Assembly (NCBI RefSeq): GCF_963675165.1
Contig: NC_087389.1
Span: forward strand, 344,001 to 408,000
Reading direction: 5' to 3'
From: Halichondria panicea
Lineage: Eukaryota > Porifera > Demospongiae > Suberitida > Halichondriidae
DNA: 64,000 nt
In this document: positions 23,338 through 64,000 of the stretch, in pieces
How the letters are laid out: each line of letters begins with the position of its first letter
Position numbering within the stretch: the stretch's first letter is position 1
Notes under the pieces: model-generated
Seen by the model: the letters and a program-made list of their open reading frames with translations, nothing else
What the model was told of the DNA's origin: nothing
The model's database searches: none
Made by a program: the position numbers and the translations under genes

Positions 23338-26300
23338 TCACCAGACCAGCTGAGGAGTGGGAGTAGTTTTAAGTGCTCCTGAGTTTAAGTCTCTGTCTCG
23401 AGGCCTGCAGGGGAGGAGGGTGCACACAATACACTACATAATAATTATTTTGCTCGTGGTAAGAATCGTTTAGGAATAAGGCTCAAAATAGAGCAAGAAA
23501 AAATGGCTCACTAAATCACGATCTTTACCTACTGCATCCCCACCCACACACCATACCTGTGACTGAGTAGCTTTGATGTTTTTGGCTTGCCATTAGATTC
23601 ACTCACTTTCCCTTTGTTCTCTTTGCTCACTGCTGGCCTGTGTAATAATTTAGAATGGTAAGACAGTACATGTATAGAACCAGGTATGACATACCTTCCA
23701 ATTCTCTTTGAGGTAGCTGCTTTTGTTAGTTGCAAGTAGTTTGGCATTTTCTGACCCGTCGGTATTCCAGTTGGCTGTCTTCTAGAGATACCAGTACTAG
23801 TGGGTCCCCCATTGACTGTCTCTTGCCTCCCAGTGTGGGCCTTCTCAACTGAAGAGGGAATAGCACACACCATGATCACATACACATTCATCTACATACA
23901 GTGCATATGTACATAAATATACATGACTGTACACAGTACACAGTACACTCCATACACTCCATACACATACCTCCTGCTCGGTGCTTCTCTCCCGTGGAAA
24001 TCGCATGATGTCCATTTTGGTGTTGTAACCGATTTCCAATATTGAAGAGACCACGTTTCTTAGAGAGTCCATTTCTCTTCTCCTTGTAGGCCCCCTTTGT
24101 GACACCACTATTGATAATATAGGTAGTATTGAGGGCGTCAGCATCGCCCTCAGACAGAGATACACCAATCGGATTGGACATGTCTGCACCACCCCCCACA
24201 TTGACAGGGCTTGGGGGCTTCTGACTCACATCTGTGAGAGATGCCGATTCACCGTTTCGACGAATTCCAAACAACTTTTTCGCTCTAGCAAACTTTCCAG
24301 GAGAAGCAATCTTCTTTATGGGCACAGGATGGCTAACAGCAGCTTCTTCCCTGTCCCTTATGTCCCTTACAGACAGATTCTCAGTCGACTTGACCCTCCG
24401 GCTAGGGCTGATTTTGTAGGCCTTGAGTGGTGAGGGGGATTTGACTCTCCGTGGCTGCTTGAACATTATTGTGCTGGTGGGTATCGAGGAGCCGGCACTG
24501 CCAACAGAGTGCACGACAGCTGCCACTGGTGAGGAGACAGCTGTCCTCGTGGTGGAGGACGTGCCACTAAGGTTGGAGGTGAGGACAGAGGAGGGCTGGT
24601 CCTGAGAAAGAGATTGTGAGCTGTGGAGGAGAGAGAAGAGAAAAGATAAGTATGGACTCCAATTTTGCATTTTGCTAAAACTGTAAGGCTGCTAAGATAC
24701 CACACAAAATACGCAACAAGGCTGTGCCATTAGTGCATAAAAGTACATGCACAAAATGGCAAGTACTTACATGTAAGAAGTGCATGTGCATGTGCATGTG
24801 CATGTACATGTGCATGTGCATGTACATGTGCATAATGTAGCCACAACACTCACCTTAGAGAGCTAGAGGGTGGTGAGGGGGAGTGGCTGGGGGAGGTTGG
24901 ATACTGCAACACCTGAGCTACGTTGGGGGTCCCTCTGCCTTCTGTTAGAGTGCTCATTGTCGTAGCAGCCATAGTTTTGACACGAATGGAATGGGAATGA
25001 TGAGGAGGTGACACAAAGTTGTCCTCAAATGCATTGCAACTTGTAGTTCTCGACACAGGAGCATGTTGTACATGTATTGGAGTATTGGTACCAGTCTTTG
25101 AAGGTGTTACGGTATTGGTTTCAGTTCGGAGCGGTGTGTTGATTCCATTTCTCAGGTGTGTATGTATACCAGACAGTAACGGTGTATTGGTACTTGTTCG
25201 TACTGGTGTAATGGTACGAAATTCTGACGCTCTTTGATGAGGTCGTGGTAAAAGATACGGCTCAGGTCGTCTTGCCTTGTTGCCTACGTGACAGCTACTA
25301 CTGCCAGAGCTCGAGTCAGTCTGAAAGGATAGCCCTCTCCTAAGAGCATTCCTTCTCTCTGGATCGTAATAGCCTTTTCTATTGTGTACAGAGTTAAGCT
25401 TGGCAGTGTAAGTGGAGGATTGACTGGAGCTCCATGATCCGTCGTCGATTGGTGTGGGGGCTCGAGGTTTGGCCACGGCAGCTAGCGTGGTGTAGGGGAG
25501 GAACGCAGGCTTGGGCAGGGACCGGACATTACTGTCCACAACAAGAGGCCTTGGAGAATGGTAGGGAGGAGCTTGCACGGTGGGTTTTCCCAGGGAAGGG
25601 TTAAACTCAACACTGGGACTAGCGAATCCATTTCTTCGCGGCGTTTCGTTCAATTTTGAGGTCATGTTCTCGGGTCTTTTAGAGAAGAGGGGAGTGAAGT
25701 TGAAACTGTTTTGGTGGGAGCGGTTTTCACTAAGAGGGTGGAACTTGAGATAGTTACGAGGAGTGAACGCAGTTCTGGGTGTGGTAGTAAAGAGAGGTGT
25801 GCCCGGTTTTGGGGAGGAGACGCCATTTATGTGTGGGGGGGAGGGCTTCTTGTCAGCCAATTTCTCCGTGGATACTACTGGACTAGAGATCGTTCTCTTG
25901 TCAGGTGATCCCCTGGGGCAGCGTGGCATGTGAGTCTTGTGTTGGACAGAGTTGGTGAGGATTCCAATAGTAGAGGGGGATGGTGATTGGTCACGATCTG
26001 TCTTCATTCCGGCTTGTATCTCTTTCAGATTTCTGACCGGTGAAGCGTGGGAGACAAAGTTATCAAACAGAGCCATCTGTGTGTTTGTAAACGTTGAAGT
26101 ACTGACGTCCATCAGGCTATTGTCAACGCTCTGCTGACTCAGGTTTTGGTCGGCCCAGGCCACGCCCTTTTCCCCTTCGGCCATTCGAACAATAATGTGG
26201 TACATGTCTTGTAGTGATGGTGTGAGGGCATTAGAGGCTCGGAGCATGGCGTGTTGCCGTCTCACCAGCGCCAGACACTCCCTGAGCATGCTGGAGGGCG

Positions 26301-39699: not shown

Positions 39700-40019
39700 C
39701 AACACAACTCTTGCACAGAATTACGATAGATAATTATAGTCGTTTGTTATGTTCTGTGTTCTGTGACAGTTTTAGATTGTGTGTACTTTTACACTTCTTT
39801 GTACGGATTTTCTGACTTTATGTACAGTATGTAGCAGAGTGTTTATTACATCATGTCAGTTCAATTACAATAGAAAATATTTATTATCAGTACAATTGTA
39901 CATGAAGGTGAAGTGACAAAGTCATCATGAGTACACTGACACAGTGCGCTTGAGGTGTACTCAATCATGTGAGACTTCTTACACAGAAATAAATAAACTT
40001 ATAGACCTTGTGAACATTG

Positions 40020-40094
40020 AGAGTGTACAATAACAGCTTCCAGCACACACCCACTGAAACAGCTTGAGGTGTGAGCTATCATGAATTGTACTCT
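40020..40094 (-). promoter_or_regulatory. Candidate SECIS element in the 3' UTR of the 72-aa gene
   Basis: Read on the minus strand. Basal helix: AGAGTACAAT (40094-40085) pairs with ATTGTACACTCT (40031-40020) with a two-base bulge. Quartet: ATGA at 40082-40079 faces GGAA at 40041-40038, supplying the tandem GA pairs. Upper helix: AGC-U-CACACC (40077-40068) pairs with GGUGUG-U-GCU (40051-40042), one U/U mismatch. Apical part: unpaired AA at 40065-40064 followed by a CUG/CAG mini-stem, as in form 2 SECIS elements. The spacer from ATGA to AA is 13 nt. It begins 68 nt downstream of the gene's stop. Folded by hand only. Confidence 0.75.
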
Positions 40095-40161
40095 ATGTTG
40101 AGTTAAAATATATTATATGGTATGAGTGTTTCTGGGCCAACACACAGCTGACCCTCTAGCG

Positions 40162-40483
40162 TCATCCATACGAGTCACGCTGTTGGAGCGCCTCATACGC
40201 CCTGTCCTCTTGCTCCCTCCGCTTTCGTTCATCCTTTGTTTCCTCGTACCCTCCGGCGTCAATCCCATTGGTCGTCTTCATAGCCTCGTCGTCACCCTCC
40301 CCCTTGCCAGTGCACTTGTAGAAACACTTGGCAATTTGTTTGCCCACGTACTCGCAGGCTGGAGGTGAAATATTGATAGGAAAATTAATGCAAATGTTTA
40401 TAATTATAGCTTGTTGTATATAGATTATCAGCCAAACAAAAATTAATACTAGAACACTCACCTCCAATTATTACTCAGCACAT
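40162..40483 (-). CDS. Candidate small selenoprotein, starts Met-Cys-Sec (TGA at 40477-40475)
   Basis: Two exons, 40462-40483 and 40162-40358 (donor GGAG|gtgagt, acceptor cacctccag), 72 codons if the in-frame TGA at codon 3 is read as selenocysteine. The product runs M-C-U-VIIGACEYVGKQIAKCFYKC, then TGKGEGDDEAMKTTNGIDAG, and a charged tail with KDERKRREQEDRAYEALQ ending DSYG. With TGA as stop there is no alternative ATG in exon 1 between the TGA and the donor, and an upstream in-frame TGA closes the frame 5'. The Cys-Sec pair plus CEY and CFYKC could be a redox site or, for the cysteines, palmitoylation. A SECIS-like hairpin follows in the 3' UTR. I do not recognise the family. Alternative: a different unseen first exon. 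Confidence 0.7.
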
Positions 40484-40662
40484 CTTATATGAGTCTAAGA
40501 ACGGAGTTAATAGTCAGCAATAATAGCAGAGAAGAGAGTAGAAATAGTTAATTGGCCTTACGTACTTGTGTGATCACTATCTGGTACTGAATCATCATGT
40601 GATTGTAAACAAACATTGATATCTGCGCATGACAATTAATATAATTTATGTTGACGTTGTGG

Positions 40663-40735
40663 GTTCGGGTGGCCCAGCGGTTAAAGCGTTGAGGTTAAGA
40701 TCGAAGGTTGCGAGTTCGAATCCGATCAACAGCAG
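40663..40735 (+). repeat. tRNA-derived sequence (SINE head or tRNA pseudogene)
   Basis: A perfect RNA polymerase III A box (TGGCCCAGCGG, 40670-40680) and B box (AGTTCGAATCC, 40713-40723) at class II tRNA spacing. However the acceptor stem (GTTCGGG against the sequence after the T arm) and the T stem (GCGAG against CCGAT) do not pair, and the anticodon stem is poor. This favours a tRNA-derived SINE or pseudogene over a working tRNA-Leu/Ser. Confidence 0.6.
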
Positions 40736-40921: not shown

Positions 40922-42547
40922 TCAATTTTGTGCTTTTTGATTAGCTCTTAAAATGTCTCCAGGACTAGGATAGGGTCTCTGTTGATACAGCGGCCCACTT
41001 GCAGTGCTGTCAACTCCTGTTTTTGCATCACCAGATACCTCTAGCCCAGACTTCCACGATCCTCTGTGTGTATGGGGGTAGCCATGATTATTAAATAGTA
41101 CTATCAAATAGGAGCTAAAAATCACAATAGCAGAAGTAAATAATAGTTAGACACTGTTTTGGAGGTGTCTATGGGATTTAGAAGTCCAAAGGCACTGATT
41201 TAGTATCCCGAGCGTAGCGAGGGTACTAAAGTGGCTGAAGGCTTCTAAATCACATGGACACCGACAAAACAGTGTCTAACTCATTTAGATACTAGTGTGG
41301 ATGCACAAACTGCTTGACTACAATACAATTACTTGACAACGGAATACTAGGTATACTAAGTAAATTTGCAGGTATACTAAGTCCCATAGTATACCTGCTC
41401 TGAGGCACTTTCCCCATGTACTTCCCATGTAGATCTTATCAACTAGTGTCTAATGTTCGTTAGAACGCACTAACATTACCTGGTACAAGTCATATATCTC
41501 AGTTACAGCTTTTTATAATTATAGGCTGTTTAATTAAAATAATAAATAGCTCAGCTTTAATTAAAGATTAATGTAACTATTTTCTAGCATATACTCACCT
41601 TGGTATTTCTGAGTACGATGCAGGGTCCATTGGGTCGAGATCCCCATCATCATTATCACGACCTTTGTACCCTAAATATGCAGCATTCATATCACTCAAT
41701 CACATCACAAAACACACTCACTTTTACTCCTCTCGGGCTTGCTATACGGTGCTGGCCTCTTCTTGTCTTTTGCTGCCTTTGCGATCAAGTTATCTTCCAG
41801 TGGTGACTGGATCTCCTCAACAGGCTAAGGGTGTGGGAGGAAGTTAATATATTGGTAATCAAACATACGTAACAATATTCGCTCACTGGAGGTCTTTCGT
41901 TGTTTTCTGGGCTCTCATTATTTTCAGGTGCATTCAGAAATTGTGCTGCATAACAAAGTTCACAGTACAAAGGTCACAGTACACATCTACTCCAATGGTA
42001 CAATTACAATGTGATGACAACTTACTTCCATTGGGTGGATACCATGTTACTTCATTCGACTTGGTGTTCCAAAAATAGCTATGTATAATCCCTATAAATA
42101 CAAAACACAGCTATAATACATTTTTACCTTTTGTCATCTTTTACTTTCTTCCAGTTGGCGGGTAAGATGATGTTCACTCTTGCAGAGCTCAACTGTGTAA
42201 ACTTAATCACATGATACACGCACGCGCACACACATGTGAGATACAAACCTCAATGCCGTGTTTGTCCACACAGAATTGTGAGCATTGATGGTACAGATTG
42301 TCTTGATTGGGGCATACGGGTTTGGACGGCTGCTTGTTCTCATCAGTAGGCTCTGCTGATGCTGCATGAGATCATAATTATTCTGACGGTATGTACAATG
42401 TATCACACCACTGCACTGTACTACAAAATGATGTGCATCTATTCAGTATGGAAACACTGAGCTCACAAGGTAATACTCACGGGCACTGGGTCCTTTGATC
42501 AGCCCTTTCTTTGCTAGTCTAGCCTGAAGGGCGGCTGTGAGAGGCAT
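40922..42547 (-). CDS. PQBP1: Polyglutamine-binding protein 1 (WW-domain splicing factor)
   Basis: Nuclear protein linking transcription and pre-mRNA splicing; its C-terminus binds the U5 snRNP 15-kDa protein. Eight exons: 42481-42547, 42249-42361, 42128-42192, 42026-42078, 41887-41945, 41722-41824, 41599-41671, 40922-41063; 224 aa, phases consistent. The N-terminus [19 protein letters not shown] matches the family. The WW domain is [20 protein letters not shown] followed by TWYPPN. A basic mid-region ([15 protein letters not shown]) stands in for the polar repeat of vertebrates and is much shorter. The conserved C-terminal block [20 protein letters not shown] ... [20 protein letters not shown] is intact, including the YxxxRPYPSPG U5-binding motif. 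Divergent start with the 221-aa gene 150 bp away. Confidence 0.95.
41146..41280. mobile_element. MITE-like element with about 39-bp terminal inverted repeats
   Basis: Begins GTTAGACACTGTTTTGGAGG and ends with the near reverse complement (last bases ...ACAAAACAGTGTCTAAC); about 39 bp of each arm pair with few mismatches. The centre contains a second palindromic part (tatcccgagcg / cgagggtacta). Located in the last PQBP1 intron (41064-41598). Confidence 0.8.

Positions 42548-55754: not shown

Positions 55755-64000
<8,246 letters not shown>

Follow-up and report, generated by a model that had tools for sequence, protein, structure and literature searches.

A small two-exon gene on the minus strand of the window (the whole stretch of 64,000 nucleotides of Halichondria panicea DNA analysed here) very probably encodes a selenoprotein. 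In the reading that we prefer, and to which we assign a probability of roughly 60%, its sequence suggests that translation would start at the AUG at 40483 and that the UGA at codon 3 would be decoded as selenocysteine (Sec); placement of Sec at this first UGA, whether in the two-exon form or in a longer one, is quite likely. A genuine SECIS element in the 3' untranslated region (UTR) of a genuine, conserved small gene is well supported. The selenoprotein reading put forward in the original prediction is backed by this SECIS, by the conservation of exon 2, by the exon 1 donor, which is the best available, and by the limit that the upstream PQBP1-like gene sets, while its placement of Sec at codon 3 is likely rather than proven, because a second in-frame UGA is present (Table 1).

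Recomputed coordinates bear out the predicted two-exon minus-strand structure with a GT-AG intron and place its start at ATG 40483-40481, TGC 40480-40478 and TGA 40477-40475; with the first TGA read as a residue, the product has the expected length of 72, with 69 residues after M, C and U. Its sequence, MCUVIIGACEYVGKQIAKCFYKC...DSYG, ends at the second UGA: the next in-frame stop after the first is the TGA at 40164-40162, itself a UGA, so that the frame contains two in-frame UGAs, a point absent from the original prediction. The exon 1 donor (GT at 40461) has the top score between 40921 and 40359, 7.6 bits with a runner-up at 3.7, on a simple matrix built from donor frequencies that are typical of animals, and its phase fits the join to exon 2. 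Traced back through this donor, the frame of exon 2 reads GGA ATT ATA GTA TGA TGC ATG, and the ATGs in frame with exon 2 are those at 40630, with several stops between, and at 40483, with the TGA at codon 3 only. In the 560 nt preceding exon 2, no ATG could be joined to it without interruption through any donor above 2 bits. Conservation is seen for exon 2, with exon 1 in frame through the best donor. From reading frame, splice signals, exon 2 conservation, SECIS match, tRNA-Sec and further selenoprotein-type genes, all computed in this analysis, we infer that the locus would be transcribed and spliced and would insert Sec.

Table 1 Features of the candidate selenoprotein gene and its surroundings (positions in the window).
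Feature	Position	Strand	Detail
Exon 1, 22 nt: ATG TGC TGA GTA ATA ATT GGA G, donor GAG/GTGAGT at its end	40462..40483	-	
First UGA (codon 3), preferred Sec codon	40475..40477	-	exon junction 13 nt on
Intron, 103 nt, GTGAGT...CACCTCCAG	40359..40461	-	
Exon 2 coding part, from 40358 through the second UGA: CEYVGKQIAKCFYKCTGK...ERKRREQEDRAYEALQQRDSYG	40162..40358	-	homologs P0002-P0005
Second UGA (40164-40162), CGC, TAG (40158-40156)	40156..40164	-	normal stop or C-terminal Sec codon (GUR-stop)
SECIS element (Rfam SECIS_1), assigned to form 2 from the apical mini-stem	40026..40090	-	28.8 bits
Poly(A) signals past the SECIS: AATAAA at 39885 and at 39847 (first letters)	39842..39885	-	
Exon A (40598-40562, ATGATG..., donor TAC/GTAAGG) and acceptor TTCTTAG ending at 40495, together a possible alternative 5' part	40495..40598	-	by eye
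PQBP1-like gene, same strand	40922..~43000 (5' limit approximate)	-	stop 40924-40922 bounds the candidate gene on its 5' side

Among ~5.8 billion proteins, the window protein has, besides its own entry (P0001), four homologs, with identities of 86% (P0002), 52% (P0003), 57% (P0004) and 53% (P0005). Apart from PP(A), which the acceptor encodes, likeness among them starts at the exon 2 splice boundary, and the 12 residues CEYVGKQIAKCF, part of the exon 2 product CEYVGKQIAKCFYKCTGKGEGDDEAMKTTNGIDAGGYEETKDERKRREQEDRAYEALQQRDSYG, are identical in P0002 and P0003, the two homologs that show the start of exon 2; this is the pattern expected of a conserved coding exon and a genuine acceptor at 40359. 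P0001, the database entry for the locus, is an open-frame call that starts inside the intron, and P0002 and P0003 look like calls of the same kind. P0004 and P0005 start at the Val/Met of CEY[V]GKQ, which would fit a nearby upstream stop but is non-discriminating, as their contigs may be genomic or cDNA. The homologs are known as proteins alone, and their DNA was not found in genome-contig or viral-contig databases. In Pfam-A, the window protein, P0002, P0004 and P0005 had no match at E <= 10, and P0003 had two matches to unrelated families, far below cut-offs; PDB sequence searches returned nothing with E < 1. Consistently with the claim that the protein matches no known selenoprotein family, Pfam-A thus held no meaningful match, and membership in SelS (PF06936), SelK (PF10961), Rdx (PF10262), Sep15/SelM (PF08806) or any other Pfam-A family was rejected on the lack of a profile match.

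The ATGA of the SECIS lies 289 nt from the first in-frame UGA in the spliced mRNA and 79 nt from the second. At its distance from the exon junction, the first UGA falls under the 50-nt rule, so that the message would be spared nonsense-mediated decay; UGA 1 of SELENOP lies 26 nt from its junction (PMC5133445). The rival that survives best, though we judge it unlikely, puts Sec at the second UGA, in a C-terminal ...DSYG-U-R-stop, with the first UGA bypassed by another first exon or with both recoded. Proximity to the SECIS favours it, as do the Gly runs before the stop in two of the four homologs (YGG-stop, YGGGG-stop), SelK and SelS having Gly-rich Sec tails; the CGC TAG directly after this UGA fits too, but a stop within two codons has a chance of ~9% under equal codon use, and the TAG is therefore weak evidence. 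Past the place of the second UGA, however, three homologs extend with G, GGG and V, with no Cys, and P0002 stops at that same place, while the bypass, which by eye could be achieved by splicing exon A straight to exon 2, would have to use a weak donor (0.6 bits vs 7.6).

A small selenoprotein with two such UGAs is Euplotes crassus SelW, in which UGAs at positions 9 (N-terminal) and 85 both take Sec, more efficiently at 85 (PMC3737529); the higher efficiency of the downstream codon speaks for Sec at the second UGA here, and the use of both makes double use possible in principle. SelW comes, in contrast, from another organism and another family, and the sponge protein has no Rdx match. Recoding of both UGAs in the candidate and its family (~72-74 residues), with Sec at residue 3 (beside Cys 2) and sometimes also at residue 73, so that forms ending in DSYG and DSYGUR would share one SECIS, is quite improbable. 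To our knowledge, Sec at residue 3, as in the reading that we prefer, has no eukaryotic precedent.

The hairpin parts listed in the original prediction were all found in place (ATGA at 40082, 13 nt, AA, GGAA at 40041, apical mini-stem, and an upper helix with one U/U mismatch); the basal helix as then drawn starts 68 nt past the stop, and the SECIS_1 match 71 nt past it, at 40090. From its first to its last position, the SECIS_1 model is covered by 40090-40026 (minus strand), with 28.8 bits and E = 0.0022 (4227 Rfam families, 901 nt; E = 0.16 in 64 kb), and no other SECIS match reached E <= 10 in the 64 kb. The element is thus a full-length 3' SECIS match on the sense strand, in the right place after the gene's stop, with a score under the gathering score of 35; because 28.8 bits falls under that value, the default Rfam search of the window, run at gathering scores, lists nothing.

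A score of this size and an unremarkable folding energy (z -1.48, a stability reached by 14 of 200 shuffles) would also suit an ordinary small protein gene followed by a SECIS-like hairpin of chance origin, whose true first exon lies elsewhere and in which the first UGA is never in frame; by sequence, an open alternative first exon (exon A) exists. We hold this to be very improbable. Dividing E by the family count gives 3.8e-5 for SECIS_1 in the window, and only ~0.08 matches of equal quality are expected by chance per 131 Mb genome, both strands (1.5e-7 per 500 nt on one strand); a second extrapolation, from the genome-wide SECIS_1 search, also gives 0.08, both values depending on the Infernal E-value calibration. 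Moreover, the match stands on the sense strand just past the stop of a gene that, in its simplest splice model, needs UGA recoding.

Elsewhere in the window, several microRNA families were matched below gathering scores at 24767-24845 and 62885-62949, stretches that probably consist of long GT/TG dinucleotide repeats, of which one is visible in the open frames at 62500-63059. The minus strand at 56528-57376 carries a 282-codon open frame whose C-terminal half contains a Thr-rich repeat of the TETVSTAEN type and by eye resembles a mucin.

Selenoprotein genes of the same genome served to calibrate the score. The genome has a tRNA-Sec gene (73.4 bits) together with GPX, AhpC-like and SelO-type genes that combine in-frame TGA and SECIS_1 matches. 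These three places were the ones found at E <= 10 by a genome-wide SECIS_1 search in which 133 of 1782 first-look candidates were scored, a search that is not exhaustive, since it missed the present hairpin and that of L007. A match of 33.6 bits adjoins a glutathione peroxidase (GPX) with SK-TGA-GLAQ, and one of 31.4 bits adjoins an AhpC-like gene (L003) with LS-TGA-GPC. The third (21.6 bits) is on the strand of a SelO match, 3.6 kb past its last exon and shortly past an open frame whose final codons, T-TGA-TCT-TCG-TAA, would read U-S-S-stop after the T; SelO proteins end in U-S-S. In addition, 31.2 bits were obtained ~450 nt past an Rdx match (20.9 bits, under the cut-off of 22.6) that looks by eye like SelT. 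All four of these other SECIS_1 matches are thus on selenoprotein-type genes, none of them reaches 35 bits, and the candidate is within their range. By the terms of the original prediction, the lack of a SECIS score above threshold would refute it; by the letter this is what Rfam gives (28.8 vs 35), but the Rfam threshold is too strict here, because the four selenoprotein-type loci (33.6, 31.4, 31.2 and 21.6 bits) would fall with it.

Control searches covered other genomes and other loci. Among 14 prokaryotic control genomes, SECIS_1 matches at E <= 10 occurred in 4, none above the cut-off. No SECIS_1 match at E <= 1 was seen at 18 further loci of the sponge genome, 10 of which had been chosen for Rdx, SelK or Sep15/SelM matches that were weak or partial and 8 for tRNA matches, with some overlap, an origin that makes them a thin control, testing misses as much as false matches. 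In a set of eight loci, three (L002, L003 and L007) had SECIS_1 at E <= 1, and it was absent at that level from L005 (SelS match), L006 (Rdx), L009 (SelK match) and L017 and L018 (Sep15/SelM matches); in a set of nine, L004 and L032 had it at E <= 10 (L032 and L003 share one location), and it was absent from L029, L030, L031, L033, L035, L036 and L039, with in-frame TGAs in L030 and L031. These searches covered ~3 kb of DNA per locus, so that a missing SECIS either lies outside the searched DNA or was overlooked by SECIS_1. As to tRNA genes, a cluster of near-identical ones, spaced ~150-350 nt apart, was noted at G000:C8:5704687-5706891 (L022-L025, L028); they also match the tRNA-Sec model, with lower scores.

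A last rival keeps Sec at the first UGA but lengthens the N-terminus. If the acceptor at 40495, which is plausible though absent from the original prediction, were used, exon 1 would become an internal 33-nt exon (exon B, 40494-40462) between exon A (40598-40562), with a 67-nt intron, and exon 2, and the protein would begin MMIQYQIVITQVHSYKMCUVIIGACEY..., with Sec as residue 19, or further along should translation begin at a preceding ATG in that open frame. The phases fit by eye at both junctions and this acceptor has the highest pyrimidine content among those listed, whereas the exon A donor is weak (0.6 bits) and one additional exon is required; we consider this form highly improbable. The room for other exons is limited by the upstream neighbour, whose C-terminus is matched by polyglutamine-binding protein 1 chains in the PDB (best E 7.1e-13) and which has a weak WW match (12.8 bits vs a cut-off of 26.9): its end at 40922 leaves ~440 nt, on the assumption that the genes do not overlap, and on that same assumption coding exons beyond it were rejected. 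Initiation at the internal Met of exon 2 was also discarded, as the most conserved stretch would be lost and P0005, one of the four homologs, has no Met there, and so was a duplicate or processed copy of the gene elsewhere in the genome, where just the locus itself, a 44-base match at 91% and one protein match were found.

Between the PQBP1-like gene and the candidate, a tRNA-like stretch is visible by eye at ~40661-40735 of the window (plus-strand sense, TTCGAATCC-type box). It is possibly a remnant of a tRNA-derived SINE; neither ARAGORN nor Rfam at gathering scores calls anything there.

With Sec at codon 3, the locus would work as follows. A sponge mRNA with a eukaryotic SECIS in its 3' UTR would be initiated by the ribosome at the AUG at 40483, and the UGA at codon 3 would be decoded as selenocysteine by SECIS-binding protein, eEFSec and tRNA-Sec, as is normal in eukaryotes. 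Cys or Sec occupies residues 2, 3, 9, 19 and 23, and across residues 1-28 the hydrophobic moment of 18-residue helical windows is 0.37-0.50 when Sec is replaced by Cys. The N-terminal third may form an amphipathic, cysteine-rich and probably membrane-associating helix that carries the Cys-Sec pair, and the C-terminal third a charged helix that would bind a partner. Cys2-Sec3, or Sec3 and a nearby Cys, could form a selenenylsulfide, and the protein might serve at a membrane surface as a reductant or a small redox switch; helices, membrane association and the redox role of the pair are all predictions.

The candidate shares with eukaryotic selenoproteins the in-frame UGA, the 3' UTR SECIS with its AUGA/AA/GA core and a genome that also holds tRNA-Sec and other selenoprotein-type genes, and differs from them in having Sec at residue 3 of 72 residues and no recognised fold or family. 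SelK and SelS are likewise small, and Sec would likewise stand beside the last residue if the second UGA were the Sec codon, but neither PF10961 nor PF06936 is matched by the candidate or its homologs, and a separate SelS match is on another contig of the genome. SelK (PF10961) itself yielded eight partial matches over the cut-off (L009-L016; G000:C3:7726940-8050926 and C6:1629778-1712349), repeated copies on two contigs, each with an in-frame TAA or TAG and none with a SECIS_1 match at E <= 1. The AphC-like selenoproteins are reported from sponges only, in a study that includes no family like the present one in its Amphimedon selenoprotein list (Jiang et al. 2012, PMC3473315). The genome has such an AphC-like gene (L003, TGA-GPC with its own SECIS_1 match), which points to a sponge host, whereas these proteins have a thioredoxin-like fold and the candidate shows no sequence likeness to them. 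Two further AhpC-like genes each carry a pair of in-frame TGAs at a distance of three codons, giving a UxxU motif in place of the UxxC of L003: FG-TGA-SP-TGA-NRH in L030 (G000:C9:5963054-5963386, minus) and YV-TGA-RP-TGA-TNH in L031 (G000:C16:5266032-5266349, minus). No protein like the candidate was found in the literature searched, which includes few papers from subscription journals.

If confirmed, the gene represents a new selenoprotein family, with Sec unusually close to the start; new animal selenoprotein families are rare. A Sec at codon 3 would put to the test how early after initiation the eukaryotic machinery can recode UGA, and the second in-frame UGA at the end would make position-dependent recoding testable within one short mRNA. 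It would also show that gene calling with UGA as a stop misses small genes of this kind, as in the P0001 call, which runs into the intron.
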